Shown here in pieces: positions 16,212 to 50,073 of a DNA stretch of 64,000 nt (positions are counted from its first letter, which is position 1; each line of letters opens with the position of its first letter). Source of the stretch: Mermis nigrescens. Lineage: Eukaryota; Nematoda; Enoplea; Mermithida; Mermithidae. The position numbers and the translations under genes were made by a program. The notes below the pieces were generated by a model. It was not told where the DNA came from. It was given only the letters and a program-made list of their open reading frames with translations, and did not search any database. The stretch is from NCBI GenBank assembly GCA_036768485.1, contig JAVLUZ010000745.1, forward strand, positions 62,001 through 126,000, given 5' to 3'.

Positions 16212-16214
16212 TAT

Positions 16215-16226
16215 TGGCGAGCGCCA
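16215..16226 (+). promoter_or_regulatory. Putative primer-binding site, element B
   Basis: TGGCGAGCGCC starts 3 bases after the LTR. A TGG start matches the CCA end of a tRNA primer. It resembles the sites of C (TGGCGATCACG) and, less surely, A (TGGCAATCGCG). The tRNA is not identified. Confidence 0.5.
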
Positions 16227-16699: not shown

Positions 16700-17570
16700 T
16701 AACAATCCGGCCACCTATCCCCTCTTTTGGTAGTCTGGGAGAACATTTTGGGACTGGATTTCGGAATTCAAACAATTTGTCGCTTTACAAAATATCAAGG
16801 ATACCAACCAAAATTTGAAAATTGCATCCCTCAAATCTTTTTTAACCGGACCAGCACTTGCTTTAATTGATGAATTAAAGAATACACATAATGCACACTT
16901 GACATACCAGTTATGTATTACTACACTACAAAATGCATTTCCAGACCACAGAGATGCAGATATACAACAACATTGGTTAATTGAACGTAAGCAAAAATGG
17001 TCCAAAACAACAGCAGAATTTCTTTCAGATTTGAAAAAATTGGCACAATTTTTGTATCCAAATTTGCAGCAAAATAATAGAGACACAATAATAAAACCTC
17101 TTTTTGCAAGGCATTTTAAGCACACCTGAGGCGTGGGGGGTTGGGGGTATGCAGCCCCCCAGAAACCAAAATACCCCCCCAGAAATCAAAATACCCCCCC
17201 CCAGAATTCAATTTTTGAAATTTTTTTTCGTTTTTTTCGCAATTTTTTGATGCCAATGGATAGTGCTTGATGAGAAACGTCGAAAAATGGTGTTTTTATC
17301 GCCATACCACCATTTTTAAGGCCATTTTTCGACCTTCAAAAAATCTTGCACCCCTCCCAGAATTTTCTTGTTGCCCACGTATGATTTTAAGTGATGTTTG
17401 TGAAGCCATAAAATTTCGCGAATTTGCAACTTTAAATGATATTCTACAAGCCGCTAATTATGTAGAATCTCAAATTTTGAGGGACAAGTTTTTGCAAACT
17501 AATTTTCGGAGAGCACCAGAGCCTATTTGCACTAACATTAATGCAGAAAATGCAATGACAAAGTAGCACA
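16700..17570 (+). pseudogene. Element B gag, split by a MITE
   Basis: The frame 16815-17129 carries a capsid-like segment (LKSFLTGPALALIDEL, then FPDHRDADIQQHWL and LSDLKKLAQF) like Ty3 gag. After the MITE at 17121-17383 the coding similarity resumes (ILSDVCEAIKFREF, YVESQILRDKF) to 17566. The ATTTTAAG duplication marks the exact interruption. The same blocks appear in element A at 6719-6015. Upstream, 16440-16810 has gag-like sequence in broken frames. Confidence 0.7.
17121..17383 (+). mobile_element. hAT-like MITE copy 3, in element B gag
   Basis: Starts CACACCTGAGGCG and ends GCCCACGTATG. Perfect 8-bp duplication ATTTTAAG at 17113-17120 and 17384-17391. Confidence 0.9.
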
Positions 17571-17911
17571 TCAGCTACAGCTACTCACTTACTAAAAACC
17601 CGCTTCCACACTTAAGCATAGGCATAAGGTGGACATGCATAAAATAAATACAAATAGTATATTTTAGTTGATTAAAACATCATTTTAGGACTGTAGTAGC
17701 TGATTAAAAAGCAGAAGCCCACCAATCCTGTACTAATCATTGGCCAACACTTTTTTATAATTTAAGTTTTTATGTGATAATCATGAAAATTTGCTAATTT
17801 TTTAGGATGTATAATTTTATTTACTAGCTTGAATATTTTGAATGATGTAACTAGGTCTAAAATGACGCTAGACAAAGTTTTGTAGTCATACAAAACATAC
17901 AATGAAATAAA

Positions 17912-18388
17912 TTGCAAAAAAGTGATCGGCTAGGCGCCATCCTAGTTCACATGAACGTGAGGGTTAAATGCCAACACTGCTCTCAAACAGGGCACAAATC
18001 AGAGCTATGCAGGCAGAGACCGCCAGCAATTTTCTGTTATAAATGCCATCAATCTGGGCACTTATCTCGCACATGCCCACAACGTATAAGCAGTACCCCC
18101 AGAGTTGCATCTCAAAACCACCCTCAAAACACTAACACATTTTTGAGACCTCCAAGGAACACATTGCATGATTTTCTGCAGACACAAGATGTGAACAATA
18201 TAAATCATGATATAGATTACCCACAGATCAATCAATACCCACAAATCAATCCACTTCATTTGATTCAGAAATCAATATGCAACACTGTTGAATCTGATTT
18301 CAAGAATGAATTAAGCAACACGCTTAAAAACAAACAGTCAAACGACAATTATATTTTGTTACTTGATTTTCCAATAATTCCAATATAG
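17912..18388 (+). pseudogene. Element B nucleocapsid with two zinc knuckles
   Basis: This 158-codon frame contains two CX2CX4HX4C knuckles in tandem, CQHCSQTGHKSELC and CYKCHQSGHLSRTC, the RNA-binding nucleocapsid signature of retroelement Gag. It ends in an Asn- and Gln-rich tail. It is separated from the rest of gag by about 340 bp of non-coding sequence (17570-17910), possibly another small insertion. The envelope-like unit follows after the piggyBac-like insertion. Confidence 0.75.
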
Positions 18389-18762
18389 ACATTGAGACTG
18401 TCAAATTTATTTTGGATAGTGAATAGGACAAAGAGCCCTCAATCAAGTCGGCGCCACTTGCCAAAAATATGACAAAGATTACACTGATGAACAACAAAAA
18501 ATCAGCAACGACAGAGCAAGCACCGACAGAGCAGGCAAAGCACACAATGTACCCACCATTGCGTCTGGTGAAATTATTGACGTCTTCAATTACCGCAACT
18601 CCTGCACCTGAAATTACCCCAACATTGGAGCCTGGTATGTGGCAACCGCAAAAATCCGTACATTGTAGCCAATGCTGAGGCGCATGCTTTTACTGCTGCC
18701 AATGTATAAACAAGGTACACAGCATGCAATTAACAATCTATTCTGTTTCTTACGACCTTTAA

Positions 18763-20428
18763 TCTTTTAAAGTCCGCTCTATGATGCAGATGTGCTACAG
18801 CAATGCAATCTTAATATGTTTCAAATCTGTAAAATGTAAAAGACTGTATGCAAAAACCAGAGCAAAAGCTCTCCTCTCTATCATGTTGTTCATATGTTCC
18901 CATTTGGGAACGTTGGCTTCTCGGGAACATTTTTGTCAAATTTCATGTTCTGTTATGTTTTGCAAAACATAAGATTAAAGCAATCTGCTACAAATATTGA
19001 TATCACAAGTGATCTAAACTGTCAAATTGTCGAATAGAGAGCCTACAAGGGTGTGGTTTTGAGTGTTTGAAACCTGATGGGTACCATAAACCTCAGAGAA
19101 ACCAAGAAACTTTTAGTAGACACCATAACTTTATATTTGTTTTTTGTTAGATTTGCTTACTTTCCAGATAACATTAAATAATGTCTAGCTATGATGAGTA
19201 AAAAGTTATAATCTGTATTTTCTGCATTTTCTGGATGTTTCAAAATTTATTGGTTTTCTCATTTCTACGCTGTTGAACTAATGCACGTGATCTCAGAGCT
19301 ATTTACACTGCATTGATGTATATGTCGGTATACTAAAAATTAGAAACCATGAATCGAAATTTGGGATATTATAGGAAGTCAGGGTGTAATATAGTCAATT
19401 TGGCAATTTCATACATTTTTCAATAAGTAAAATTTTACAGTGAATTAAAGTAAGTCATAAAATCATACATTTACCCTATTCGGATATTTACCTATTCGCA
19501 GTTGTTATTGATAGTCCAATAAACTCACACTCAAAGGTTAGTTATGTTGCTAGCATGCTTCTGAGCTATTGAAAAATGTTAGCAATCAGTAGTTATATAA
19601 AGTTTGATAAAGTGCAGTGCAAGTTCTACAGATCAAAAACACATGATATTGTGCATGAATTCACGAAAAATTTGTCTCTAGGCCTCTAAAGATTCATGGC
19701 TCTGTAAGTTATAGTAAAAAATTCAAGCAAAGTATGTAAGGTAGAGCAGGTAATTTCTGCAAAAGCACCTAAAATTATTTACAGAAACACTTGAATTTTT
19801 GCCTAAAAACTGCTAGAAATCAAGAGCTACATTGCTGTGTAATTGTAACACATAGAATCAAGTAAATAATCCTATAAACCTGCATTTAATATTTTGAATA
19901 TGTGCATTGGAGTCATACCAGAATGCTTTTTGAGCTCTAGAAAATTGAAGGAAGGCATGAGAGGTCACTAAAGAGCATCATCAAGGTTACATATGCAGCC
20001 CCATAGATTTTGTTCTCTTTCCAGGAATTATATATTTTTGCACTCCTAGGAGCCAACGTTCCCAAATGGGAACATCAATATAAATTTAACCATAACTTTT
20101 GATGAACAACTAAATAAAAATGAATAAGATACCAAAATGATCAGAAAACCTCTGCAAACATGACTGCATTACATTTGGCTCAAAAATTTTGTATGTCAAT
20201 TGACATTATGCAAATTTCTAAACATGACAAACTTTCGCTATTTTTGTCTAACTTAAGACAGTATGAGCGTAGCATATACTCATTATTAAGTTTTAAAATT
20301 GCTTTCACAGGATATGCAAAGATCTTGTTTCTCATCCAAAACAAGTCTCATTTAAATTAGATGAGTTGTTGTTTTGCAACAAAATTTTGAAAATATGTTC
20401 CCGATTGGGAACGTTGGCCACTAAAAGG
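18763..20428. mobile_element. piggyBac-like non-autonomous element
   Basis: TTAA occurs at both borders (18759-18762 and 20429-20432). The left end reads TCTTTTAAAGTCC and the right end, reversed, CCTTTTAGTGGCC, a plausible imperfect inverted pair. TTAA targets are typical of piggyBac. The interior carries near-palindromes of form GTTCCCAWWTGGGAAC at 18895, 20059 and 20397, each next to GTTGGC or its complement. No transposase frame is seen. It sits just before the envelope-like unit of element B. Confidence 0.55.
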
Positions 20429-20473
20429 TTAAGCAAAAACTCGTTTTGTTAAAAATTAACAATTTGTCCAAAA

Positions 20474-22420
20474 TTTAGGGGTGGTCATCCCATTGAAATT
20501 TTGCAAAATATTACGTGTAAATTACCAACATCAGGCATTAAAACACATGGGTGTGGGGGTTGGGGGTATGCACCCCCCAGAAGTTGAAATATTCCCCCAG
20601 AAATCAAAATACCCCCAGAATTCAAATTTTGAAAAATTTTTTGCTTCTTTAGCAATTTTTGATGCCATTGGATAGTGCTCAACAAGAAATGTCAAAAATG
20701 GTGTTTTTTTTGTTATACAGTCACTTTTGAGACCATTTTTTGACCTTTGAAAATTTTTTCACACCTTATCCCAGAATTTTGGTGCTGCCCACCTATGGGC
20801 ATTACCCCTACAGTGCTCAGTGCAGTTGTTTTCATACCCCAGGTTAAACCCAATAATACATTTGCTCATAAATGTAGTGTAAAGAAGCAAACAGCATGTA
20901 CTTATACAAGTTTTTTATGGAGGAGAAGGAATTGTAGCAGACATAACAAATTTCAAAATTGTAATGCCTCAAATTTGTCAAAAAAATGGCAATAAACAAA
21001 ATTTTTTTCGATCAAAATCTTACAAATGTACATGCAGATATTTGGTTCACACTAAACTTGTTGCAAGTTTCTTTTTCTTGGTGTTGCAAATTGTGTTGTG
21101 AAGAAGTCAAAAATGCAGTTGTCGAATTTGGGCATGTAGCAACACAAGACGGAAAAACTTTGATGAGCAATTTAGGTGATGTTGGAGGGTGTTTACCCCA
21201 ATGCCGGATTTTGTAGTTCAAGCGAACATATAATTAAATGGGATAAATGTAAATTAAAGCAAGCAGAATGTCCATTTGAGATAAAAGGCATGTATAATAT
21301 TTTGTTGAGTGAGTCTAACATTGTCATAGAAGCTTATGCAAGGGACATTTTTAGTAAAACATGACTATTTTTTGATAAAAGATGTCATTCACTAAACGGT
21401 TCAATTGAAACGCACTAAGGCATTTTAATTTACACCAGCTTTAATAAATCGCAAATTCTGATGCAGAAAATGGCAGAAGTTTTTGAGCAAAGCTCTTGGT
21501 TCTATGAAACAGACCCCAAGGACCCCATAAATGCAAAATTAATTAATTTATAGCATAAAATATTACAATATGAATTGCAAAATTTTTGTAATGTATAGTT
21601 AGAACTTTGCATGCAGGCCCAAAGACATTCAGACGTGGTGTGACAAATTTTGAAGCTTGACGCCACTCTTGGGGCCTGTGTCTTTTTGCAATGTACCGAT
21701 GTAATGGCTGAATTCCAAGGCAAAGCCCTGATTTTTTGGGTATGCACACCTGTGCAGATTAGCCATATAAATAAGGATTTTGAGTTAACAGTATATGTTA
21801 CACATTTCTACCTGTCAAATTTGACAATCGGACTTTTTTCATGATACCCGGAAGCATGGACTTAACTTCAAATAGTCCTCACAATATCATGTAAAAACAA
21901 GAAAACAAGAGGACCGCTAATTTTAAGGAAAATGTAAATTTTCGACTAATTTTGGGTAAGTGCATGTCACATTTGTACCTGTAAACATATTTTGAAATGA
22001 CAACTTTTCGCTTTTCAATTTTGATGCCTCAGCAATATTTGAAAGTCATGAAAGTTCATCAGATAGTCATAATCCGCAACAATATATTTGTCGTAATCAC
22101 CACATTGAAAAAATTCTTAGTAAGTTAGTGAATTACACAGCAGAAATGTCCTTACACCCGGACAGTTTGTATGAAACTTTAGAAGGAGGTGGGAAAGCCT
22201 TAGGTAATGTAGTCACTGGAGCAGGTGAAGTGATCAAATATGTTATCTATGAGGTGCAAAAAAGGCACAAAGGAAGCATTTTATAGCTTATTAAAAAGGA
22301 CCATTACAAAGTACCATCAATATTATCATTGCAATTGTGACCATTGCATGTTTAATTTATTGTTTTACTGGTGTCGCATGCATTTGGGTATTTGTACATT
22401 CCATTGTACTCATCTGTTCA
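20474..22420 (+). pseudogene. Element B envelope-like glycoprotein remnant
   Basis: Broken plus-strand frames hold the same ordered blocks as in A, C and D. There is a CPKFRGGHPIEI motif near 20470-20510 (compare CDRFQGGHAVLVP in C), interrupted by a MITE. A Cys-containing region follows at about 20880-21000, then W.KCKLKQAECPFEIKG (about 21240-21290), LDATLGACVFLQCTD (about 21650-21700), AEMSLHPDSLYETLEGGGKA (about 22140-22200) and a hydrophobic anchor (NIIIAIVTIACLIYCF) near 22320-22380. Many stops interrupt it. The first hydrophobic segment is not visible, probably lost at the insertion. Confidence 0.6.
20544..20797 (+). mobile_element. hAT-like MITE copy 4 (variant subfamily)
   Basis: Starts CACATGGGTGTGGGGG and ends GGTGCTGCCCACCTATG. 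This variant has AGAAGTTGAAATA and GGTGCTGCCC instead of the main family's ACCAAAATACC and CTTGCTGCCC. Flanking GGCATTAA and GGCATTAC suggest the duplication with a 2-base offset on the left. Confidence 0.75.
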
Positions 22421-22589
22421 TTGAACTTTCATCATCACATAATCTTCAAAGCCTCTCTTTAGGCCAAGTGCTTTTGAAACTGAGTAAGACAAACGCGGAT
22501 GCAAAACTTCAGTCAGTAAGTATTCTGCCAATTCATACTAAAATAAGACGTTTGCCTTTTATATCGTAATAATAAATGATACAATATGC

Positions 22590-22740
22590 ATTGAAGCTAT
22601 GCTAAATACTGGCGCTTCAGATTCTTTAATTGATACTTTGATTCTTAAACTTATTTCTGATGTCAAGATTTTACCTACATCCACAAAAGCTTTGACAGCT
22701 AATGAAGCTTACCGATACCATTAATAGGTTGCGCTTTTAT
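22590..22740 (+). pseudogene. Element B protease remnant with dead active site
   Basis: The sequence reads IEAMLNTGASDSLID, aligned with AMLDTGSEITLI in C and ALIDSGASYSLID in A. The catalytic Asp of the D-T-G loop is Asn here, so it would be inactive even if translated. A stop follows within about 40 codons. Confidence 0.6.
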
Positions 22741-22949
22741 AACACTAAAGTAGCCAACATTGAAGAAACAATAATAGTTCAAGTTCAAGAAAAATATATG
22801 GCCGCTAATCTTATATTAAGCCAAATTTGTTGACCAGTTTCAAGATTTATTTTTTTAACAACGAGCAAAATTACATGAAATTAGGTGAATTTTGAGTCCC
22901 ATGCAATGGACTTTTCTTTAATCCACCCAAAAATAGAGGGGCTATCTAC

Positions 22950-24700
22950 TTGGACAACATATTAATTTTACCTGCAAATAGCATAACAGAATTCTCAGTC
23001 CCAGTAGCCAACATGTATAAGATCGCTTCATCCATTCAATTTTTACCAACAGAATTATGTTTCAAAAAAACTAATCCTTGTTTTGCTCCTAGTATCTCAA
23101 AAATCCATGACAACCGCATTCATATTTCATTTTATACCCACAGAAAAGCCAAATTATTTTATTTAGAAATATGCACCTTGGAAACATTAAGGCATATAAT
23201 GATGCAAAAATATGCATAAATTTGTGTAACTCAAGCATTGAGGAAACTGAAAACAAAAAGCTTTTGAGTTGGCTTGCTGAAAAGGTGAACTTGAGTCAAA
23301 CTGACATGTCATACATGCAAAAACTCATGTTTCTTCAAATTCTAGTGAATTATCCAACTTCATCCGCAATGTGCAAAATGGATTCTGGGCGGACAAAGCT
23401 TTTCGAACACACTATTGACACAGGAGACAGTAAGCCCATTTGTGGCCCAATTTTTGTATTTCACCCAAAGAAGATGGAATTATTCAAGAAGAAGTCAAAA
23501 ATTAGAGAAAGCAGGCATGATTAAAATTCAATCACCATGGTGCACAAACACAGTATTAGTTCATAAAAAGGATAGCGTTACTGCCTATGCATGGATTTTT
23601 GAGCTCTGAAAAGTGTTACAAAAAAGTTAGTCTTCCCATACCGTGAATTGATAGCATTTTAGGTTCACTGAATGGCGCTAAGTATTTTACATCGCTCGAC
23701 CAAGCTAACACGTATTTTGCAGTGCCTATAGCTTCCTCCAATTCAGAGAAAGCCACATTTTCAGCACCACAAGGTCTCTTTGAATTTAAAGACTTACTTT
23801 TTGGTTCAACAAATGCATCAGCATCATGCTGAGCGCCTTATGAATATTTTGTTAGCAGGTTTGCAGTGGAATACCTGTCTAGTGTACTTAGATGACGTTT
23901 TAGTATTTGGCAAAGATTTTGCAGAGATGCTGCAAAGACTTGATTCAGTTTTATCGCACTTGAACAAAGCAGGTCTGACATTGCGCGTTGAAAAATGTAA
24001 ATTTTTTCTGACACAAATAAAATTTTTAGGGCATGTTATTTTGTCAGAGGGCATTTCACCCGATCCACACAAAATTAAGGCTATCATGGGAATACCAACA
24101 CCTATGTGCGCAAAAGAAGTTAAATCGTTTTTAGGGCTCCCATCTTACTACAGGTGTTTCATTGAATATTGCTCACAAATTTTGTTTCCGCTCACCCAGC
24201 TTCTTAGAAAGAATGCACTTTTTGTTTGGGGACCGGAGCAGAAAAACGCATTTAAAACTCTTAAAACGCATTTTATTTCAGCTACTGCATTACAACATCC
24301 TGATTTTAATTAGCCATTCATCTTGCAGACCAACACCTCTTATAGGGAAATTGGGGCCGCTTTGAGCCAAATCGGGGCAGATAATAATGAGCGCAAGTAG
24401 CTTATGCAAGCAGGAGTCTTAAACCTGCTAAATTAAACTATGCAGTGACAGATTTAGAAACATTAGCACTTTTTATGTTTTTGAATACTTCCACGCGTAT
24501 CTTTTTCAGCAGAATGTAATTGTACAGCCAGACCATAAAGGAGTAAAGTCAATTCTTGCTAAGGAAAACCCCTTGGGAAGAATAGCACGTTGGCAATTGG
24601 CCCTGTCTGCATACAAGTTAGACATTCAAGCTTGAAAAGGTACACAAATTTGCAATGCCGATGTTTTATCAAGATTTCCTAGCACAGATAAAATGGAAAC
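22950..24700 (+). pseudogene. Element B RT-RNase H remnant
   Basis: Connected frames: 22950-23219 and 23171-23524 match the segment before RT. At 23780-24313 a 177-codon frame has CLVYLDDVLVFGKDF (YLDD catalytic box), LRVEKCKFF, KFLGHVI and VKSFLGLPSYYR, the Ty3 RT palm and thumb. RNase H pieces follow to about 24680 in shifted frames. Stops near 23610 and elsewhere break it. No integrase zinc finger or DDE motif can be found downstream. Confidence 0.75.
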
Positions 24701-25697
24701 AATTGATATTGAGAAATTAATATGTATATACCTACGTAAAATAACATTTAATCTGCTCAAAGGAACATCAACTCGGGCCAACTGCAATTCTGTGCATGTA
24801 CCCTATGTATCAAAAGTCCGAAAGGCAAGAATTCTGGCCATGCAAATGCGAGTGAGAGCTAATGCTAATGGCATATAAGTTTATGCATGTTTCTTTTTTG
24901 TTGTTGTATCGCAATTTACACTTTTCACTACATGAAGCATGTGTAACTAATCACATAATCCTGTTCATCTTCATTTTTTCCGGCAAACAATTAGCCCACG
25001 TTTTTTCTGGCAATATGCCAATGCCTTGCACAGTATATATGTCTAAATTAACATTAAGCATACTGTATTACAGTAATGATTTGTTTTCATACTGAGACAT
25101 CTGCTCAGAGATTTCTGAAGAGTAAGATTTATGAGCACATCTTTTGATTGATATTTCTCATGTGTAGGTCACGTTGTTATTGTCCAATAGAATTTTCATA
25201 TTACATAGGTCTTAGAAAACAAATAGTAATTACCTACCTATATCCTTTGAAAATAAGTATCCTACACAAAGAAGCTGAAAAACAGCTGTACACATAATTG
25301 TTTGCCATTTAGTAACCACACACTTGAGATACATTATGCAATTTGAAAGGAGTATCGGAAAATGGGTCAAGTGCAAGGTGACAGCTAGTATTGGAATTTC
25401 TCACCTTGCTCATAAGTACATAAGATACACTATAAAGAGGAAAAAATAGAACGTTTTTCCACGCAAAGTACAAGCACCAAATTATTCTCTATATAAAAAT
25501 TGTACTGGCCCATTATATTTTAATCTCAACAACACCGTAAATTGCATCATACCAAAGAAAAACTGTAGTTCCATCCTACCCGCATACTGTATTCATTCTA
25601 AACTGTATTTAACATTCATTTTGCATGCTGAATATCCACGTTAAAATAGTTTTTTCCTGTTTTTGCCTTTTTCTACTAAGACTGAGGGCGTTCGTCT

Positions 25698-25711
25698 TTG
25701 AAGGCTGAAAA
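25698..25711 (+). promoter_or_regulatory. Putative polypurine tract, element B
   Basis: TTGAAGGCTGAAAA directly precedes the 3' LTR start TGTCATG. It is mostly purine, but weaker than the tract of element D. Confidence 0.4.
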
Positions 25712-26097
25712 TGTCATGTAAAATGGTTTCACATGCGATTTCGAAAGCAACATGCTAAAAGTAAACCAAAGATATTTAGTATTCTTTTTTCAGTAGGTAC
25801 AGTAATGCATTTATTACGTACATATTATACAATGAGTAAGGCAGTATGCACACAAAGGACGTGGAAGAGTGAGGGTGGAGTTGAAGAAGGTCCAACACAA
25901 AGAAAGAAATTCAAAGGGGCACACTACGATAAGAAGGCGTGCCTGAGGATTCCAGTTGGCGATTTGTGAAGGCCTAGTATTAGTATGTTTGGCCCGTTTT
26001 AGTTCTTTCTGCATTAATAAAATCTGTATATCCGAACATTACTCTAGGACAATGCCTAAGGCAGGGATTATACGGTCTAAGGAACAGGGTTGTGACA
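25712..26097 (+). repeat. Element B 3' LTR
   Basis: Pairs with 15825-16211. Starts TGTCATGTAAAATGG and ends GGGTTGTGACA, followed by the duplication CATC and the resumed minisatellite. Confidence 0.85.
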
Positions 26098-26670: not shown

Positions 26671-27105
26671 TGTAACGCGTGCCTTTTATTTAGTAACGTG
26701 TATGTATAAGGTGAGTGATACTTTATTACGCTTAAGATATTATGTAACAACAAGGTGAGCGATACTTACGATATAATACAGCAGCGATCGCCACGGCACA
26801 TACGACAGCAATAATATACTAAGCCGTTTCCCAGAATTTGGGAGATCCAACCCAAGTTCGCTCGGCACGGCTACAATGCGGGTTCATGTTGAGCAGAGAT
26901 GTTTTATATTCTACGTTAAACATTTCCAAGTCATATGAGTGCGGGGTATTGGAATAAGTTTTTATGATATTCGCATGACCAATAAAATTCGGAGATGAGA
27001 TTCTTAGATAACTTTTTTGCATTGAGCGCAAGCTTCGAAACTATGACGCAAATAATATCGCGAATTTCGATGCTAATATCAAAGTTCAAAACTTAGAGCA
27101 TTACA
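26671..27105 (-). repeat. Element C 3' LTR
   Basis: Pairs with 36660-37096. On the minus strand it starts TGTAATGCTC and ends GCGTTACA. An AATAAA (CTAAATAAAAGG on the minus strand) lies just before the end, a candidate polyadenylation signal. Confidence 0.92.
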
Positions 27106-27117
27106 TTCTTCCCTGTT
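27106..27117 (-). promoter_or_regulatory. Putative polypurine tract, element C
   Basis: On the minus strand AACAGGGAAGAA directly abuts the 3' LTR, the expected site for plus-strand priming. Just upstream, at 27130-27168, a 20-bp direct repeat (CTAGGTACCCCAAACCTA) occurs twice. Confidence 0.6.
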
Positions 27118-27503
27118 TGGAAAAAGAGGCCTAGGTACCCCAAACCTAGCCTAGGTACCCCAAACCTACGTGAGAGGAAAAGTGTGTGTAAAAAAACTAT
27201 TGCATATGTAAAGAATAAAACAATTTGCAATGTGTTGTGTAAAGAGGTACCTATGTGAGTGTTTCGTATTGTGTAACAATACCTACGTGAGTGCTTGCAC
27301 GGACTGAAACGAGAAAAATAAAAGAAATTCTTCTTTTCTTTTTGGAATAAAATATTTTTTTGATTAATAATTTTCTTCCTCTTAATTCTTTTCCTCCCCA
27401 TCAAACTGAACCTATTAGTATGTGAGTACGAAAAGCCCATAAGCACGTAGATACATTATCAAAAAAAATACACTCCAATAAACAAAATGCAATAAACAAT
27501 GAA

Positions 27504-28904
27504 TCATTGATATGGTCGCGGTGGACGGCGATAGAACGGCATTGGACGCTCCTGTGGCTTATACGTGTGTATCTCGCCTGGCTTCGACTCGACCCTCACG
27601 CGCAAAAATTTTAGTAAACGCTGCTCTTTTTCCTTCATCTCATTCGCCGGTATCATGAAACTTTTATGCAATTCTTCAACGCATTCCCGATAAAACTGCT
27701 CGTAGTAGCCCCAAATATTAACGCGGCAGTCGCCAAATCGTTCTCCAAAAACTTGTTGCACGGTGTTGAGAAAAATCTGGAATCGTGGTGCTATATCTTT
27801 CGTGCGAACATCTTGAGCCGGCATGTAGTTGTAAAATGATGGTCGCTGCTGATTCGGATATGGGTGACTTTGCGCTGTAATCGCCTTTGGCTCGCTTTGA
27901 TCGGCTGGTCGCAAAAAGCCTATTTGAATCGACTCGTTTGGTCCGCTCATTTTCGGTTCCAACTGCAAAGGTGAGGAGTGAGACTGATGCTGCAATAAAT
28001 CGGAAAATTGTGGTGTGATTATTGGTGCAACTTCGTTGCTTTTGTTAGCGGATGCGGTTGTTTGGGTGTTTACATCAACAACACACACTGGTACCAACTT
28101 CCCTATTTTCATTGTTTGAGTGTATTCGCTTCGATACGTATTCGCGCACCAGATAATTGGCGGCGGGAGACGAACGTCGCTATTTTTCATTTTCATTGCG
28201 CAATATAATTCATCATAATTTTCTTCCAAAATCGCGTAAAAGTCGAAAGTTAGTGCAGCAAGCATCGCACTCATTATTGCGGGGGAAGCAATTGAATATT
28301 GCCCTAAATCGCCGTATAAATTAGCTGCGAAGAAAAAATACGCCATAGAACTGAAATCGGTGGGCACTTTGTGCTCGAAAAAAGGTGCTATTCGCGACTC
28401 TTGTGCTGCTTTCATTAATTCTGCGGCGTCTACCGAAACATTAAAACCGAGTAAGCGACTGTCCGTATTTTCAAGGCAAGCTAAACAATTCTTATCAAAA
28501 TCAAAGCCGATTTTTCTTACGCTTTCGTCTAATAGAAGTTCGCGCAAAACAGTGGGAATTTCACGCAAATTCATGATATCGAAACTGCAAACTATGCCGT
28601 CTGGCCGAAACAAACTGATAAAATCGCAAAATGGGCCATTTCCTTCGCCTTTAAAAGATCGTGTGGGTTTTAGAGTGAGAGCAGTATCTTCAATATTAGC
28701 TATTTCAACATAGTGTGAACAATGAAAACCAAGAATGCCTTTGATGCGTGGGTCACTGCATATGATCGAACAAGCGTCCTCTGGCGCCAGATCATTTGGC
28801 ACAAAAAAAATCTTTGATTCGGTAGGTCGTCGATTAAACCACAACAACCATTTCCGTGAAACAACAGTCGAAAACAACGTTGGTTTAGCCGGAGTAACTG
28901 CCAC
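27504..28904 (-). CDS. Accessory ORF of element C, possible DEDD exonuclease-like protein
   Basis: An uninterrupted 466-codon frame lies between integrase and the 3' LTR. Residues about 30-230 have a layout like RNase D/WRN-type 3'-5' exonucleases: a strand region (IKGILGFHCSHYVEI, 55-69), a strand then helix (IVCSFDIMNLREIPTVLREL, 104-123), VRKIGFDFDKNCLACL (129-144), VDAAEL (158-163), and AALTFDFYAIL (216-226), where the family has its last Asp and Tyr. Motif I, normally D-x-E, reads H-C-S, so catalysis is doubtful. The C-terminal 110 residues form a separate basic, Pro/Arg-ending region. Elements A, B and D have no counterpart. CpG-rich codons differ from the AT-rich neighbours, which fits capture from elsewhere. 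The fold call is inference; it could be an unrelated regulatory protein. Confidence 0.5.
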   Translation of the reverse strand: MAVTPAKPTLFSTVVSRKWLLWFNRRPTESKIFFVPNDLAPEDACSIICSDPRIKGILGFHCSHYVEIANIEDTALTLKPTRSFKGEGNGPFCDFISLFRPDGIVCSFDIMNLREIPTVLRELLLDESVRKIGFDFDKNCLACLENTDSRLLGFNVSVDAAELMKAAQESRIAPFFEHKVPTDFSSMAYFFFAANLYGDLGQYSIASPAIMSAMLAALTFDFYAILEENYDELYCAMKMKNSDVRLPPPIIWCANTYRSEYTQTMKIGKLVPVCVVDVNTQTTASANKSNEVAPIITPQFSDLLQHQSHSSPLQLEPKMSGPNESIQIGFLRPADQSEPKAITAQSHPYPNQQRPSFYNYMPAQDVRTKDIAPRFQIFLNTVQQVFGERFGDCRVNIWGYYEQFYRECVEELHKSFMIPANEMKEKEQRLLKFLRVRVESKPGEIHTYKPQERPMPFYRRPPRPYQ

Positions 28905-29019
28905 TGTGCGTTTCCATGAAACGTCATCCGTTTTGTTTGTTGGTGAGGGCGATTCCTCTCGGGCTGGAATCCATAAAATAGTTACATTATATTTTTTTTA
29001 GGTGAGAGAAAAAAATTAA

Positions 29020-31998
29020 TTATTTGCTACTACGTAAATAATAAGGGTGACTGGGTGGTTGACGATCCGCTAGTTTCTTTTCGATTTTTATTTCTTCTTT
29101 TTGATTACTTTGAGTGAGATTGTCAATATTTTCACGATTTTTATTGGGTGAGAGCTTTAATCGGTTAACGTGAACCCATTCTAAAGCATCTTTTGTGGGT
29201 TCCCGTAACAAAACAATAGGATATTTAATTTGCATAATTTCATAAGGCCCGATCCAAGGATGTAAAAATTTGCTTGTCTGCCCTAATTTAACAGCTGGCG
29301 AAAATTTATAAACCCAACAACCTATCGAAAGTGAGATATTTTTAACTTTTTTATTGTACTGATGCTTTTGTGTTTGCTGAGAAATTTTTATATTTTCACG
29401 TGCTATATTTTGAGAGTCATTCAAAATTCTTGCTACTTCAGTCGCGTAATCACTGAGATCAATTTTATATGGGGAGAGATGTTCAGGCTTAAAGAGTGCA
29501 ACTTCGACTGGCAACTTAGGTTTTCTTCCATAAAGCAAGAAAAAAGGTGAAAACTTAGTCGATTCTTGAACAGAAGTATTGTATGCAAAAATAGCAAAAG
29601 GCAAGAAAGCATCCCAGTCCGATTGACTTTTATTCACATACATCGATAAAATATTAGTCAAAGTTTTATTGAATCTCTCTACTAAGCCGTCCGTTTGAGG
29701 GTGATAAGCGGTTGTGTTGATTGTGCGAGTATCACATAAGCTACAAATTTCCTTAATTAACTCAGACATATAATTAGACCCACGATCAGATAATAAAAAA
29801 CTGGGAGCACCATGCCTGAGAACAACTTCATGTAATAAAGTGTGAGCGACGGTTTTAGCGGTTGTATTAGGAATAGCAGCTCCCATAACAAATTTTGTTA
29901 AATAATCAGTAAAAATGATTATAAATCTATTACCATTTTCAGTGAGGGGTAAAGGACCTAAAATATCAGTAGCAACACGATCAAAAGGTCCATTGACATG
30001 AATTGGACACAATTCTGCTTTAGTGAGTTTATTTGGTGATTTTCTAGTCAAACACCTTAAGCATTTTTCACAATAATCTTTGATGTCATTATACATTTTC
30101 AGCCAAAAGAATCTTTCCTTAATTTTCTTGTACGTACGCTTAAAACCAAAATGGCCGGAGAGAGAGTGGTCGTGAAAAGCAAATAAAATTTCCTCTCTTA
30201 AATTATTAGGCACAACTAACAGTTTTTCAGTGTGTTTACTATAAGGCGAACCTACGAAATATAACAGATTATCCTCCACAATATATTGAGAGCTAAGTAA
30301 GGTAAAACGCCTTGCTTCATTTTCTGCCTGCGGTAACTCATTCGTATTAAGATATTTTATCATTTTTCCACAAAAATCATCCTGATTTTGCTTATCAGAT
30401 AAGCTTAAAATTGAGTCAGAAGGAGTTACGACTATATTAGCATTTCTTGACAAAGCGTCAGCATTAGTGTGTAGCTTTCCTGGCTTATATTTAATTTCAA
30501 AATCATATTCTTGTAAGGCTAAGCCCCATCTTGCTATACGTGGTGAGGGGTTGGGTTTTTTTAGAATATACTGCAAAGCAGAGTGATCCGTTACGATTAT
30601 TATTTTCCGTTGAAAAATATAAGACCTAAACTGTTTTACGGCCCAAACACAAGATAATGCTTCTTGCTCAAACACTGGATAATTAATTTCCGACGATTTT
30701 AAACTTCTACTAGCAAAAGCTATGGGGTGTTCTTTTCCATTTATTTCCTGAGCCAAAATAGCACCTATGCCTTTTCCGGATGCGTCTGTTTGAACAATAA
30801 AGGGTTTTGTGAAATCTGGGTAAATAAGAACAGGCGCAGTGATGAGTGAGTTTTTTAACGAATCAAAAGCATTTTGACATTCATCACTCCAAACAAATTT
30901 TTTATCCTTTTTTAATAAATTATGTAAGGGCGTAGCAATGATAGAAAAATTGCGTATAAATCGACGATAATAGCCAGCTAATCCAAGAAAACTTTTAACT
31001 TTATCGATCGAAACGGGTGTGAGAAATTCAGAAACGGCTTTGACTTTATTAAAATCGGGAGTGACGCCATTTCTATTCACCGTAAATCCTAAATAAGAAA
31101 TACTTGACTGCGCAAATTTGCATTTTTCTAAACGCAATTTTAAACCTGCTTGTTGAAGCTTTTCTAAAATTATTGAGAGTCGATATTGATGTTCTGCGAA
31201 AGTACGTCCGAAAATCAAAATATCATCTAAATATACAAGACATATGTCCCATTGAAGTCCAGAGAGAATAAGGTCCATTAACCTTTGAAAAGTTGCGGGA
31301 GCGTTACAGAGACCAAAAGGGAGAACATTAAATTCATAAAGACCTTTATATGTTATAAAAGCGGTTTTTTCTTTGTCTTTTTCAGCGACAGGTATTTGCC
31401 AATAACCCCAAGCTTGGTCTAGACTTGTGAAATATGCACTTTTGTTGAGTGTTTCAATAATATCATCAATTCTTGGGAGAGGATAGGAGTCCTTTTTTGT
31501 AACTTTATTGAGTTTTCTATAATCAACACAAAATCTGAAACCTCCTGACTTTTTAGGCACTAACACGATAGGACTAGCCCACGGACTTTGAGAGGGTCTT
31601 ATCACAGATTTATCTAACATATGTTTTATTTCATTTTCAATAACTTCTCTCTGCTTATGTGGTACTCTATAGGCTTGTTGTTTTATAGGAGAGGCATTAT
31701 CGGTATTTATCTTATGTTCAGTAAGTTGAGTATGTCCTAAATCCTTATCGTCTCTTACAAAAAGTTCTGCATAGTGAGATAGAAGTTTTAATAAATCAGC
31801 GTTTTCAGATTCTGTTAATACTGGTTTACCAGGAATTTCACTAAATTTCAAAGATGGTTGAGTGAGAGTTTCATCTTTAAAATTTAAATTAGAGAGCGAT
31901 ACCATTCTTCCATCATTACAAAAGCTTACTCGACCTAAACGACTTCCTTTAAAAATTTTAACAGGGTCTTGATTAGGGTTCAAAACACTAATTTTCAC
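29020..31998 (-). CDS. pol: Element C Pol: RT, RNase H, integrase (992 codons)
   Basis: Makes element cDNA and inserts it into the genome. RT is at about residues 100-340, with DYRKLN (159-164), SLDQAWGYWQI and the YLDD catalytic box (256-259). RNase H is at about 395-520, with QTDASGKG (Asp405), Glu445 and TDHSAL (Asp471). Integrase has an HHCC zinc finger (about 609-649), Asp678, Asp738 and Glu774 (YHPQTDGLVERFN), then a GPY/F-type module (WIGPYEI). PR-RT-RH-INT order and these motifs are Ty3/Gypsy. The listed start codon is GTG; the frame continues upstream about 18 codons to a stop near 32050, so Pol was probably joined to the protease frame before a small indel. All catalytic residues are intact. 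Confidence 0.9.
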   Translation of the reverse strand: MKISVLNPNQDPVKIFKGSRLGRVSFCNDGRMVSLSNLNFKDETLTQPSLKFSEIPGKPVLTESENADLLKLLSHYAELFVRDDKDLGHTQLTEHKINTDNASPIKQQAYRVPHKQREVIENEIKHMLDKSVIRPSQSPWASPIVLVPKKSGGFRFCVDYRKLNKVTKKDSYPLPRIDDIIETLNKSAYFTSLDQAWGYWQIPVAEKDKEKTAFITYKGLYEFNVLPFGLCNAPATFQRLMDLILSGLQWDICLVYLDDILIFGRTFAEHQYRLSIILEKLQQAGLKLRLEKCKFAQSSISYLGFTVNRNGVTPDFNKVKAVSEFLTPVSIDKVKSFLGLAGYYRRFIRNFSIIATPLHNLLKKDKKFVWSDECQNAFDSLKNSLITAPVLIYPDFTKPFIVQTDASGKGIGAILAQEINGKEHPIAFASRSLKSSEINYPVFEQEALSCVWAVKQFRSYIFQRKIIIVTDHSALQYILKKPNPSPRIARWGLALQEYDFEIKYKPGKLHTNADALSRNANIVVTPSDSILSLSDKQNQDDFCGKMIKYLNTNELPQAENEARRFTLLSSQYIVEDNLLYFVGSPYSKHTEKLLVVPNNLREEILFAFHDHSLSGHFGFKRTYKKIKERFFWLKMYNDIKDYCEKCLRCLTRKSPNKLTKAELCPIHVNGPFDRVATDILGPLPLTENGNRFIIIFTDYLTKFVMGAAIPNTTAKTVAHTLLHEVVLRHGAPSFLLSDRGSNYMSELIKEICSLCDTRTINTTAYHPQTDGLVERFNKTLTNILSMYVNKSQSDWDAFLPFAIFAYNTSVQESTKFSPFFLLYGRKPKLPVEVALFKPEHLSPYKIDLSDYATEVARILNDSQNIARENIKISQQTQKHQYNKKVKNISLSIGCWVYKFSPAVKLGQTSKFLHPWIGPYEIMQIKYPIVLLREPTKDALEWVHVNRLKLSPNKNRENIDNLTQSNQKEEIKIEKKLADRQPPSHPYYLRSSK

Positions 31999-31999
31999 T

Positions 32000-32206
32000 T
32001 CATTATTAGAGGGTGCATCGACTGAACAACCGATATGTATATTTTTTTATTTAAAATTTCGCAAAAAGGCTCAAAAATGACACATTTCAAATCAGAATAA
32101 GGATATTCTAACGCAACTGTAGCAATTAAAGAAGTTCTGGGAGGTATAATTAATGTTTCTGAGAGTCGTGTGATTCCTTTACTTCCATCTGAGTGTTGCC
32201 TAGTAT
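32000..32206 (-). pseudogene. Protease-RT linker with two frame changes
   Basis: Coding similarity continues between the protease frame and Pol in a third frame, with small indels near 32250 and 32045 (a poly-T run on the plus strand). Protease-Pol is therefore broken in this copy unless frameshifting bridges it. Confidence 0.5.
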
Positions 32207-33428
32207 TCAGAGTGGGTAACTCATGTGGACCAAATTTAACAATACTACGATTCCAATAAAAAATAAATTAGGGTAACGCCACAAATAATCATTACCTATT
32301 AAAAAATCTACGGGGCATTCAGGAACAACATATGCTCGAATCATTTCATCATTAGCCAAATATTTATTATTAATTAAATGTAAGTTTATCCATGTACTAC
32401 CTAGCACATTTGATACAACACCACAAGCTTGCTTTATTATTTTAATTTCCGAAGAATAAAGTGAGAGTCTTAATTTTTGACGCAACCCGTCTTTTATTAG
32501 CGTTATTTCTGATCCTGTATCTAACATAGCTTCAATTACTTCACTAGTCAATAAGTTTTGAGGGTTAGTGAGTTGAACCAAAATTTTTGGATAACGCTCA
32601 TTTTTATTATATTTATTTGGAAGATTTTCAGAGTCACTCCTTATCATTGAAGATATTCTATATTCTTGCATTTCTTTATTCATAAATGGTGAGAGTGCTT
32701 GGGATAGTATTTGAGTGAGATTACCGGTTTCTCCACTATCGCTGGATGCATTAGGACTAGCAACTCGTTTCGGACTGGCAGTCTTAATTTCTCTTTGCAC
32801 TTCACTTTCGCGATTTGCTTCCATCGTTTGTGTGGGTGAGTTTTGGTTGCGTCGCGTAATTCGACTCGCGCAAAAATAATTAATTTCGCTGAAAATATTA
32901 AATTTGTAGAGCAAATAGACAACGTACACAACGCAAATGACAACAATAATCGTTACTATAATATTTATAATTAATTGTAAAGGAGCGGAGAGGAGGTGAT
33001 TAAGACCTGTACTTAAGTAAGAGGTACCATTTAATAAAAAATATCCTACCGCTTTTTCTTCACTTTCAATAATTTCACTTACAGCTTCGCCAGTGCCTTT
33101 CATAAAATTATAAATAACACTTGAATCAAGTGACATACTAGCTGAGTAATCTATTACGCGCTGCATTTGAGCATCTAATCGTTCATTCATTTCCATATAT
33201 TGAAATAAAGAAGAAAATATGTGAGTATTAATTTCTTTAGGTATTTTTATGAGTGGGGGTGCTTCAAAAACATATGGCTTCCATTTATGATGCCAAGCTA
33301 TTTCTAAAGGTATCTGACTTACATGTGTTTTACCATTAACACTATACCAAACATTATCTAACTGATAAATAGCATTGTGTTTTTCAGCACAATTAACAAT
33401 GGGAGAACGGTGAGTGAGGTCATTTGAC
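32207..33428 (-). pseudogene. Element C glycoprotein C-terminal part fused to aspartic protease
   Basis: One continuous frame carries, in order, the end of an ectodomain (helical region with YSASMSLDSSVIYNFMKGTG), a long hydrophobic anchor (LINIIVTIIVVICVVYVVYLL, about 32910-32980), a basic and Ser/Thr-rich linker, and a retropepsin with AMLDTGSEITLI (about 32498-32530) and a downstream FLIGNDYLW. The in-frame link between envelope-like anchor and protease is direct in the sequence. The frame opens inside the MITE at 33429-33684, so the true upstream coding part lies beyond it. The protease should cut Gag and Pol precursors; its active-site DTG is intact. Confidence 0.75.
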
Positions 33429-33684
33429 CACACCTGGGCGTGGGGGGTTTGGGGGTATGCACCCCCCAGAAACCAAAATACTCCCCCAGAAATCAAAACA
33501 CCCCCAGAATTCAATTTTTGAAATTATTATTTTTTTTTTTGCAATTTTTTGATGCCAATGGATAGTGCTTGATGAGAAACGTCGAAAAATGGTGTTTTTA
33601 TCGCCATACCACCATTTTTAAGGCCATTTTTCGACCTTCAAAAAAATCTTGCACCCCCCTGAATTTTCTTGCTGCCCACATATG
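33429..33684 (+). mobile_element. hAT-like MITE copy 5, in element C glycoprotein
   Basis: Perfect 8-bp duplication CATTTGAC at 33421-33428 and 33685-33692. It starts CACACCTGGGCG and ends CCCACATATG. It splits the glycoprotein coding region of an otherwise young element, showing recent MITE activity. Confidence 0.92.
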
Positions 33685-34847
33685 CATTTGACCCTGGAAC
33701 AATAAATCTAATTTTTTCACCTATTCCCACAGGTACAAAAGAATAACAAGTATTATTCACGGTGTAATTCCATAAAATAAAATCAGGAATTACTTTTTGA
33801 CAGTCCCAAATAAGTAGTGCTTCTCCTAAAAATATCGCCAAAATATTATTTCTTTTTAACAGAGCTTGAGCTCCTAAAGTGGGATCAAAACGAAGTATTT
33901 GCCAGACAAGCTGAAGATATCTGTCAGCAGCTCTACATAATTCAATCCAAATGTCATGAAAATGTTGCATTTCAAAATCCTGTATTTTAGACCAAAGGAA
34001 TTGCAATTTGGCATTGTATGGATCAATTTCTACATTTTTGCTTCTGTGTGATGAATTAAAAAGTGTGAGAGAATGCGTGGAGTTGAAAACATTATCATCC
34101 TCAAGCTGAACGAAAATTCCTTGAGAGGTTTCAAAAATATTTGAAATATTGCAAATGATTTTCCTGTTTTTGAGAGTGAACGCACCTTGATTGCTTCAAC
34201 GATAATATAATTATCTAAATATTTTGCATTATATGAACCAGATTTAATATAATGACATGGGTGTGTGAGATTGGAAGAAACAAGCGAAAACATAACAAAG
34301 AGTGAGTTTAACACACTGGCCTCTGTGTAAGAAACATCCTCCTGTATCACCTAAATTACTCAAAACAGACTTTCCATCATATGATACGAACGGACCCTAC
34401 TTCGATTACAAAATTTTCGATAGTTTCGCAAAAATCATAACAACAATATTTAAATTTTAGGTTTAATGTGTTGTTCGTAGACCAAATTCTATCTGAAATT
34501 TTATTCAAAATTTGGTGTGAGTATGATTTGCGAGCCTAGACAGTCTTACATTGCTCAATAGTTACACTTTTAGTAACGCTTTTATCAGCAACAATGCCTT
34601 TTGAAAAGAAAAATCCATAATTTGTACAAATAGTGTGAATTTTCATGAAACATTTGAAAGCAATTATTTGAGTGGGTTTCATATTTGGAGTCCATATAGC
34701 AATTTTTATTTTCTTAACATTATTTTTGTGAGTTTTCGGACATAATGCACTTAATTTCTTTTGGCACCAAAACTGCGTGACCACCTTGAAATCGATCACA
34801 AACAAAATAAGTCTTATGGTGTGAATCGTGAAAGTCAGCGGACACAT
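33685..34847 (-). pseudogene. Element C glycoprotein ectodomain pieces
   Basis: Three minus-strand frames (34847-34536, 34350-34030, 34006-33693) carry the middle of the envelope-like unit: a Cys-rich part with TICTNYGFFFSKG, one with SNLTHPCHY (a possible N-glycosylation site), and one with RFDPTLGAQALLKRN and CYSFVPVGIGEKI. Each has a counterpart in A, B and D in the same order. Frame breaks near 34730 and around 34020 and 34360-34530 separate them. The fusogen class is undetermined; the paired-Cys pattern and CTNYGFFFSK-type motif recall class III-like (chuvirus-type) glycoproteins but this is weak. Confidence 0.6.
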
Positions 34848-35667
34848 AATTATACAGTGAGAGCATAAAAATCAATAATATCCCAAATACAATAATCATA
34901 GACCCAAACATATGAGAGTTGTAGTGCGATCCCGAGTAGCCTTTAAAACCTACTAACGGACTGCGATAAATCATGGCATCCCCCTCTGGCATGGAATTTT
35001 GACACCCAATCACCGAGGGAGGTGTTTTTAAATTTAAAATAAAATTTTTGAAATATGATCTAGCACTACCTTCATGATCTTCGCCTTTCGGAATATCAGA
35101 AAGATACCCGGGAACCCCATTAAAATTCACTTCGTTATGTAGGCCGGACGTTATGCAGAACGTCCTCATGGAGGGAAAACCAACCTCATTGTATGAGAAT
35201 GCCTGAGCAAGAAACGGATCTTCGATAGAAAATGGATCGAATAAAATCTTTTCTTGTTCAGGTGGGCACGAGTCATTCTGGGAGCTCGAACCCTGTCTGT
35301 CATCCTCCGCATGCGCATTAGTTGTATTGCTCGTAACACTCCTATCCGACCAGACAACTCGTTTAGGAAATGTGCCTTGACCCTGGGGTCCTTTATTAAT
35401 GAACCCCTGACCCGAAAATGGCTGTGCTCTTGCGACCCTATCGCTATCATTATTATAATTATTTCCATTTGAAAACTCATTTGAATTACGCGCCAAAATA
35501 TTATTTTTTATTCGACAATTTATCTGTCTATGGCATAATTTTCCGCAAAAATAACAATTTACATTTTTATCCACATTAAGAGAGAGATTACGGTAATTGT
35601 GAATATTGCGATTATCACTTTCTTTATTTAAATCACGCATACCCGTGTTGCTATATCTTATTGTCAC
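34720..35667 (-). pseudogene. Element C nucleocapsid fused to first membrane segment of the glycoprotein
   Basis: This 315-codon frame starts in an overlap with gag and contains a CX2CX4HX4C zinc knuckle (CYFCGKLCHRQINC). A linker of about 150 residues with acidic and Ser-rich parts follows, then a hydrophobic span (MIIVFGILLIFMLSLY, about 34858-34915), then the start of an ectodomain (CDRFQGGHAVLVP). Nucleocapsid and glycoprotein are thus encoded in one frame with no stop between them, which is unusual. The hydrophobic span would act as an internal signal-anchor with Gag in the cytosol (inference). A single-base frame change ends it at 34720. Confidence 0.75.
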
Positions 35668-36616
35668 GTGGATTTAAATTAAAATTACGCCTGAGAGAGT
35701 AGTCATTTCGTTCGCCTCCGTCTTTAACAAAATTTACATGACTTGAGTTAGTAGTGGGAGCCTGAGATAAAATTGTGCCGATGGGTGAGACTCCTTGCTC
35801 ATACGCCTGATTTATTTCTTGTTTGTGTGCTTCTGAAATAGCCTCTTCAAAAGTTTTTGGTGACGCATTTCTAACCCAAAGACGAAGATTAGGTAATAAT
35901 TTTGAGATAAAGTGACTTTTTACAAAATCATTTTCATCATGTCCCGTCCAGCCTGGTTGGGCTTTTCTAGATAAACGTCTTATATCTGTTGCGTAGCGTT
36001 GTACTGATTCTCCGGGGCCTTGAAAACGTGAGAGAAGCTGATCCCGCTTGATATCTATGTGTTGGTTGTCGGGGAATTGATCACGAAAAGCATTTACCCA
36101 TTCTTGCCAGGTTGTGAGAGCAGGGATTCGTGCACTAAGCTCAGCGAAAAAGGTTTGCGCAGCGCCTTTTAAATATGTTGATAATAAAGCCACTTCTCGA
36201 TTTAATTGAGAAGCACCAGCTAAAATTGACATATTAGAGAATTGTTTTTCCCAATCCGTCCAGTCCGTTTCTCCGTCCCCAGTAAAAACAGTGAGAGGTG
36301 GAGCAGCTACTACTGAAACTGGCCTGCTATCATACATTTCTTGAATATGCTGTACTGTTTGTTGTAAAAGATTAACGACTTGTGCATCCATTTTCACAGG
36401 CTTTTGAGCAATTTTAGATCCACTTTGTTTATCACAGAAAGGCAAATTTTTAAAAAGTGAGACTGTTTCTTGTTCTAAGTTAACACTTAACGTCCGATTT
36501 CTTAGCGATTTTCCTTCACTTAGTCTTTTCGGATCTTTACTTCCTTTTTCAATGTGTTGAAAAACTCCGCTCAACGATGGATCCGTAATTAAAGTAAAAA
36601 AGTGAGTGAATAACAC
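35651..36616 (-). CDS. gag: Element C Gag (matrix/capsid part)
   Basis: This 321-codon frame contains a retrotransposon gag capsid-type segment: FTGDGETDWTDWEKQF, a Leu-rich helix set, FPDNQHIDIKRDQLL, then VQRYATDIRRLSRKAQPGW and FISKLLPNLRLWV. It forms the particle core that packages element RNA. Its 3' end overlaps the nucleocapsid frame by 17 bp, and the downstream frame is +1 relative to it. That may be a programmed +1 shift or a one-base indel. An internal Met about 75 codons in (MDAQVVNLL) may be the real start. Confidence 0.75.
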   Translation of the reverse strand: MLFTHFFTLITDPSLSGVFQHIEKGSKDPKRLSEGKSLRNRTLSVNLEQETVSLFKNLPFCDKQSGSKIAQKPVKMDAQVVNLLQQTVQHIQEMYDSRPVSVVAAPPLTVFTGDGETDWTDWEKQFSNMSILAGASQLNREVALLSTYLKGAAQTFFAELSARIPALTTWQEWVNAFRDQFPDNQHIDIKRDQLLSRFQGPGESVQRYATDIRRLSRKAQPGWTGHDENDFVKSHFISKLLPNLRLWVRNASPKTFEEAISEAHKQEINQAYEQGVSPIGTILSQAPTTNSSHVNFVKDGGERNDYSLRRNFNLNPRDNKI

Positions 36617-36642
36617 GAACGTATGAACAAATAAATAGCTAA

Positions 36643-36655
36643 GGCGTGATCGCCA
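36643..36655 (-). promoter_or_regulatory. Putative primer-binding site, element C
   Basis: On the minus strand TGGCGATCACGCC begins 4 bases after the 5' LTR. It fits the CCA end of a tRNA, perhaps an Arg type by likeness to TGGCGACCGTGAC sites known in insects (recalled, not checked). Confidence 0.5.
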
Positions 36656-36659
36656 CTAT

Positions 36660-37096
36660 TGTAACGCGTGCCTTTTATTTAGTAACGTGTATGTATAAGG
36701 TGAGTGATACTTTATTACGCTTAAGATATTATGTAACAACAAGGTGAGCGATACTTACAATATAATACAGCAGCAATCGCCACGGCACATACGACAGCAA
36801 TAATATACTAAGCCGTTTCCCCAGAATTCGGGAGATCCAACCCAAGTTTGCTCGGCATGGCTACAATGCGGGTTCATGTTGAGCAGAGATGTTTTATATT
36901 CTACGTTAAACATTTCCAAGTCATATGAGTGCGGGGTATTGGAATAAGTTTTTATGATATTCGCATGACCAATAAAACTTCGGAGATGAGATTCTTAGAT
37001 AACTTTTTTGCATTGAGCGCAAGCTTCAAAACTATGACGCAAATAATATCGCGAATTTCGATGCTAATTTCAAAATTCAAAACTTAGAGCATTACA
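36660..37096 (-). repeat. Element C 5' LTR
   Basis: Pairs with 26671-27105 with about ten differences by eye. It is flanked on the right by the TAGT duplication. From 37101 to 37456 I see no gene or element end. Confidence 0.92.
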
Positions 37097-49930: not shown

Positions 49931-50073
49931 TGAGAGTGCGCTTAGTCACCCAATAATTTTGAAGGAACAACATTTGCTCGGACCCTGGGTTCTAGGTTGG
50001 GGACGTCCATAGTGCAAACAGGACCACAATAGAGGCCAATGGGGTACATGGGATCTCAATCACATGTGGTAAG

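Follow-up and report, generated by a model that had tools for sequence, protein, structure and literature searches.

The 64,000-nucleotide stretch analysed here (the window) comes from the nematode Mermis nigrescens (GenBank assembly GCA_036768485.1, contig JAVLUZ010000745.1, positions 62,001 to 126,000) and carries four retroelements, A to D, in all of which an envelope-type glycoprotein gene (env) lies upstream of reverse transcriptase (RT). Element C is the copy on which the analysis centres. An original prediction, made from the letters of the DNA, had placed it at 26671-37096, and a pair of long terminal repeats (LTRs) together with a flanking TAGT duplication bears out this position on the minus strand. 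Its features are as follows:

26671..37096, minus strand: element C, complete from LTR to LTR (LTR comparison, flanks by eye)
26667-26670 and 37097-37100: 4-bp target-site duplication (TSD) of C, TAGT, read by eye
36660..37096, minus strand: 5' LTR (LTR comparison)
at 36655, minus strand: primer-site-like TGGCGATCAC, following the 5' LTR
35651..36655, minus strand: gag (capsid) frame P0004 (Pfam Retrotrans_gag 1.7e-9, Ty3_capsid 5.6e-7)
34720..35673, minus strand: frame P0003, a CCHC zinc knuckle followed by a signal-peptide-like segment and the glycoprotein N terminus
33638..34195, minus strand: glycoprotein core piece P0005 (PF24664 1.2e-10, BDV_G 3e-4)
33463..33660, no strand assigned: dispersed repeat of about 200 bp (D4 and other families) nested in the glycoprotein (repeat scan)
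32207..33523, minus strand: frame P0002, glycoprotein stalk, transmembrane segment and DTG protease in one frame
29020..32046, minus strand: pol frame P0006, RT, RNase H and integrase, GPY motif visible (Pfam)
27504..28997, minus strand: accessory frame P0001, 497 codons, after the integrase
26671..27105, minus strand: 3' LTR (LTR comparison)

The LTRs of C are 98.2% identical (429 matches and 8 mismatches over 437 aligned bases, plus 2 gap columns), and between them the order runs gag, zinc knuckle, signal peptide, fusion glycoprotein, transmembrane segment, protease, RT, RNase H, integrase. Reading frames and Pfam matches agree here with the predicted succession of zinc knuckle, hydrophobic segment, ectodomain, second hydrophobic segment, DTG protease and RT-RNase H-integrase. 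C is a Ty3-type LTR element (Metaviridae-like), as had been proposed, with Pfam gag and pol domains and a protease-RT-RNase H-integrase order that is complete, with a visible GPY motif, both in C and in P0070, a metagenome relative described below. The zinc knuckle (35515-35556, by eye) and the signal-peptide-like segment some 200 codons further on share a 317-codon frame, P0003, for which no Pfam match was found. Stalk, transmembrane segment (about 32906-32980) and protease (about 32282-32545) share the 438-codon frame P0002, the first 36 or so codons of which derive from the nested repeat; the Pfam match of the protease (1e-3) lies below the cut-off, and its DTG motif is visible. In 300 first-order Markov simulations of C the longest frame had 222 codons, compared with 317, 438, 497 and 1,008 codons for the real frames. 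The copy is decayed, its glycoprotein being broken and interrupted by the dispersed repeat of about 200 bp.

A profile search of the ectodomain, proposed together with the original prediction, supplied an identity that the prediction had not recognised. P0005 matches the Pfam family PF24664 (Monjiviricetes_fusion) at 1.2e-10, with 40.4 bits against a cut-off of 27, and gives weak matches to BDV_G and herpes gB; P0070 likewise matches PF24664 and BDV_G, and no F-type envelope family is among the matches of either protein. By Pfam kinship this homology identifies the predicted glycoprotein as a viral fusion protein of the chuvirus/bornavirus type (PF24664), which is found in certain negative-strand RNA viruses. 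As a member of that group it may be a class III fusion protein. The ectodomain had also been described as Cys-rich, which did not hold, as the C piece contains 4 Cys in 185 residues and is not notably so. Positive residues follow the transmembrane segments of P0070 and of P0117, a second relative of C, and would suit a cytosolic tail. No relatives were found in a search of phages with P0005 or in a viral contig collection searched with P0005, P0070, P0117, A2 and P0006, and P0002 has no kin in the protein database.

Elements A, B and D had been predicted to repeat the order of C, each with different LTRs. The order is supported by tblastn, in which A, B and D are collinear with C both with C pieces and with P0070 as queries. 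LTR pairs with 4-bp TSDs, read by eye, delimit three of the four elements (B, C and D), and the statement about LTRs is true for these only, since A lacks such a pair within the window. The corresponding features are:

1412..6884, minus strand: element A, partial (tblastn and frames)
6303-6884, minus strand: A gag
in 5911-6099, minus strand: A zinc knuckles (by eye)
in 5028-5384, minus strand: A signal-peptide-like segment
about 3591-4711, minus strand: A glycoprotein (3591-4594 with C queries)
3096-3389, minus strand: A protease
1412-3012, minus strand: A RT-RNase H (1484-2898 with C queries)
15825..26097, plus strand: element B (tblastn, LTRs and frames)
15825-16211 and 25712-26097, plus strand: B LTRs, 90.7% identical, TSD CATC by eye
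16734-17126, plus strand: B gag
in 17906-18385, plus strand: B zinc knuckle
about 21188-22459, plus strand: B glycoprotein (21521-22241 with C queries)
in 22542-22721, plus strand: B protease
23129-24716, plus strand: B RT-RNase H (23129-24674 with C queries)
47196..59960, plus strand: element D (tblastn, LTRs and frames)
47196-47430 and 59734-59960, plus strand: D LTRs, 85.5% identical over 235 columns, TSD CTAG by eye
49440-49721, plus strand: D gag
50609-50950, plus strand: D signal-peptide-like segment and glycoprotein N terminus
51757-52518, plus strand: D glycoprotein (52133-52414 with C queries)
54529-55858, plus strand: D RT-RNase H
56077-56787, plus strand: D integrase (RT to integrase 54529-56787 with C queries)

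The gag pieces of B and D match C gag at 2e-9 and 9e-7, respectively, and in A, C and D the glycoprotein can be seen to begin with a signal-peptide-like segment. No integrase was found for A within the window or for B, whose glycoprotein has no detected signal-peptide-like start, and the protease of D could not be located. TGGCGA lies immediately inside the 5' LTR in both B and C; the LTRs of B, C and D, with their short duplications, are of the TG..CA type, apart from the first base of the B 5' LTR, which is A. All four copies in the window are decayed.

Collecting copies from the genome, which had likewise been proposed, placed this arrangement at many sites. In the 524-Mb assembly (860 contigs) the PF24664 profile gave 775 candidates, and all 68 that were scored exceeded the cut-off; the family was found in none of 14 control genomes. 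The 68 places may include haplotype duplicates, such as C117 and C191, which lie at nearly equal coordinates. Twenty of them, picked from the 31 best-scoring with near-identical scores omitted, were read as 10-kb stretches. In 18 of the 20, gag lies upstream of the glycoprotein (exceptions L026 and L036), a stalk is present in all 20, and downstream there is a protease in 15, RT in 14, integrase in 13 and some part of pol in 19 (exception L028); gag upstream is combined with a pol part downstream in 17. Integrase was found upstream of the glycoprotein in none of the 20 loci, within the roughly 3.9 kb in view. Pfam searches with pieces from four loci recovered gag in three of the four pieces searched for it, and also a zinc knuckle, integrase in two pieces and protease in two, of which one fell below the cut-off. 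Open frames of at least 2,000 aa occur at 15 of the 68 places, L038 being the only one of these that was mapped. The segments of one family (L024, L030-L034 and L038) are 84.8-99.6% identical, and its copies sit at different sites, since most alignments end well before the 3' end of the stretches. Three of its members (L024, L031 and L032, compared with L030, L033 and L038) share one internal deletion in which RT to integrase is gone and gag, glycoprotein and protease are kept; they are perhaps a non-autonomous derivative family that keeps env.

One relative from outside this genome joins glycoprotein and Pol. Among the 120 listed of the 7,971 proteins passing as kin of C pol, P0070 is the only carrier of PF24664; this 1,750-aa metagenome protein consists of glycoprotein, transmembrane segment, protease, RT, RNase H and integrase and is collinear with all four window elements. 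P0117, also kin of C pol, has a hydrophobic segment at its start, ahead of the protease. Nine of ten pol pieces from A and B match P0070 or P0117 best among the matches listed, and the remaining piece, from A, matches P0060. In a 71-row RT tree (69 different rows, with database rows thinned to every second and the A and D pieces left out), the 18 glycoprotein-linked rows form one group with support of 99/97, recovered in 99% of 200 bootstrap trees. These rows comprise C, B, P0070, P0117 and 14 of the 20 genome loci, the other six having no RT piece of 150 residues, and include two identical pairs. The group contains three lineages, and their branching order close to the root is weakly supported. 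A previous pol tree (109 of 121 rows used) grouped C, P0070 and P0117 with a Shimodaira-Hasegawa-like approximate likelihood ratio (SH-aLRT) of 85. Four chromodomain Ty3 proteins (P0017, P0047, P0063 and P0067) carry a hydrophobic segment some 85-115 residues ahead of the protease and lack any recognised glycoprotein (no PF24664), so that a transmembrane segment before the protease is by itself no proof of env; perhaps these proteins reflect a wider use of membrane-tethered Pol.

Gene order is constant in the loci examined, and the survey of their frames indicates that the genes are joined in differing ways or that the joins have decayed. At three of the 20 loci (L027, L035 and L038) the glycoprotein's own frame also contains gag or part of it, and at six (L024, L032, L037, L038, L039 and L040) the protease; in L037, L038 and L040 the glycoprotein frame reaches at least the start of RT. 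A single open frame of 2,654 codons leads from part of gag through the glycoprotein to integrase at one locus, L038, where the best gag piece lies in another frame. In L040 the end of the gag frame and the env frame have 7 nt in common, and 11 codons into the env frame a hydrophobic segment begins.

We believe that these are endogenous env-bearing Ty3-type (Metaviridae-like) elements with a chuvirus/bornavirus-type glycoprotein placed after the nucleocapsid end of gag and before the protease, inherited with pol since, and we assign this reading, with the in-line mechanism outlined below as its likely route, a probability of roughly 0.75. Its parts carry different weight: the gene order and homology are practically certain, a single capture of the glycoprotein is quite likely, and an in-line Gag-Env-Pol polyprotein as the main expression route, although the likeliest one, is a tentative proposal at somewhat less than even odds. 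Several observations weigh against it. The structure model of env is poor (mean predicted local distance difference test, pLDDT, 46.6), and the sole PDB profile match of env is herpes gB at E 0.98. The 20 loci were all drawn from the top 31 of the 68 by score. Of the four D pol pieces, three have their best match among other Ty3 proteins, not in P0070 or P0117, so that D may be a second lineage, and D pol pieces are absent from the RT tree, the other rows of which were chosen as kin of C pol and include no env-less elements of the same genome. Moreover, at 12 of the 18 loci having gag the best gag piece is out of frame with env, which indicates that one polyprotein is not general, part of this being decay.

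This frame difference would also suit a conventional mode of expression, in which the order is real, Env is made from a spliced or reinitiated mRNA, the frame joins are incidental and Pol is reached by a frameshift past env or from an env-skipping mRNA. The 7-nt overlap in L040, with a hydrophobic segment 11 codons in as at a stand-alone env start, is in line with such a scheme, and insect errantiviruses splice env (PMC12992720). However, env and protease share one open frame in six of the 20 loci, in C and in P0070, and this counts against splicing, since a spliced env has no need to stay open into the protease; we consider conventional expression possible but less likely than not. That the glycoprotein block is instead a separate RNA-virus fragment, or a nested element, that landed in unrelated retroelements is highly improbable. 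Endogenous Jingchuvirales glycoproteins are reported near Gypsy fragments in Hymenoptera and other insects (PMC10084718), and the best matches of the D pol pieces would fit unrelated hosts, but both the place of the block and the gene order around it recur in the four window elements, diverged as these are, and in the genome loci examined, and the RT rows form one group. A nested independent element with its own ends, an outcome that would have undone the prediction, is rejected in view of the in-frame joins of the block to zinc knuckle and protease on its two sides in C and of its recurrence in four elements, in 17 of 20 loci and, as glycoprotein with Pol, in P0070.

It is also conceivable, if unlikely, that the lineage has already been described under another name, for instance within a 2025 survey of envelope-carrying retrotransposons that spans many animal phyla (cited in PMC13172572, PMC12859917 and PMC12992720). 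Nevertheless, no gag-env-pol LTR element was found in the literature searched, and PMC10084718 states that there is no clear evidence of capture of such a glycoprotein by Gypsy. Troyka was considered as a candidate and ruled out, as it has no env according to the part of PMC12440569 at hand.

For the env-in-middle elements, topology, cleavages, packaging and infectivity are what we infer. Gag would be made in the cytosol, and a ribosome reading from gag into env would meet the internal signal peptide after the zinc knuckle, which would thread the glycoprotein ectodomain into the lumen of the endoplasmic reticulum (ER) until the transmembrane segment stops transfer and anchors Env. Protease, RT, RNase H and integrase would then be made in the cytosol as the cytosolic tail of Env, cleavage by signal peptidase would separate Gag from Env, and the element's own protease would release Pol. 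We propose that Env, flanked by cleavable Gag and Pol, may double as a membrane anchor that takes Pol to budding Gag. Flaviviruses, which are RNA viruses without a reverse transcriptase, order their polyprotein as capsid, internal signal, envelope, membrane anchor and enzymes, and the likeness to the elements described here is one of layout only. By this analogy the clade might build its particle from an ER-threaded Gag-Env-Pol polyprotein in the flavivirus manner, with Env replacing the Gag-Pol frameshift for bringing Pol into particles, a suggestion we hold with slightly less than even confidence. As gag and env are in different frames in many copies, frameshifting, reinitiation or splicing are also likely in some lineages.

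Beyond the shared gene block, the accessory frame P0001 of C has a homologue, 29% identical, at the matching post-integrase place in L037 (302-1090, minus strand). Neither Pfam nor NCBIfam gave a match for P0001 at E up to 1, and it has no kin in the protein database; against PDB it gave two matches (E 0.52 and 1.8), taken as chance, and a two-row profile gave none. Its structure model, with a pLDDT of 33, is too poor to be of use; by eye P0001 may resemble an RNase D-like exonuclease in degenerate form. B and C are accompanied by arrays of a 30-bp repeat (15618-15883, 26104-26192 and 37412-37771), and B appears inserted into one of them. The dispersed repeat of about 200 bp (33463-33660 and others) has many copies on both strands, also inside B, C and D. 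Inside D, 53854-54348 (plus strand) recalls by eye the GIY-YIG end of a Penelope-like element and has no Pfam match. Scans of the window for tRNAs and Rfam families returned no matches.

In retroviruses env comes last, a position commonly linked with late acquisition and with expression by splicing. Likewise, env is last in the env-bearing retroelements of known order in the literature searched, following integrase or pol in errantiviruses, Atlas virus, Roo, Tas and Cer-7 (PMC12992720, PMC9094657, PMC7642597); the original prediction had stated the same of known env-bearing Ty3 and BEL elements. No Ty3 element with its env between gag and protease was found in that literature, a search not extending to the 2025 survey (Chary and Hayashi, eLife) or Repbase, and the view put forward with the prediction, that no family of this order is known to have been described, stands within these bounds; we provisionally regard the gene order as new. 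An abundant group with a central env, in frame with gag or pol depending on the copy, would show that env capture inside gag-pol can persist, and the layout suggests a way of packaging Pol, open to testing, that dispenses with Gag-Pol frameshifting. A Ty3 element appears here to have captured a Monjiviricetes-type glycoprotein, an event that had been sought in arthropods and not clearly found (PMC10084718). Like these elements, Anakin of mosquitoes is an LTR retroelement with a chuvirus-type (Monjiviricetes) glycoprotein, proposed to confer infectivity (PMC7642597), but its pol is of the BEL/Pao type, whereas that of the elements described here is Ty3, P0006 having no BEL/Pao family among its Pfam matches at E up to 1. 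Roo, Tas and Cer-7, of the same superfamily as Anakin, carry their envelope-like gene downstream of pol (PMC7642597). Atlas virus and the nematode belpaoviruses have Gag, Pol and Env in a single open frame, as does, from part of gag onwards, the copy at L038 here, but they are BEL/Pao elements of the order Gag-Pol-Env with a phlebovirus-like class II Env at the end (PMC9094657). Finally, insect errantiviruses share with these elements a Ty3-type pol plus an env, which in their case is an F-type gene (baculovirus kin), the third open reading frame downstream of gag and pol, expressed from a spliced RNA (PMC12992720), whereas in the Mermis elements env precedes RT and is of the PF24664/BDV_G type.

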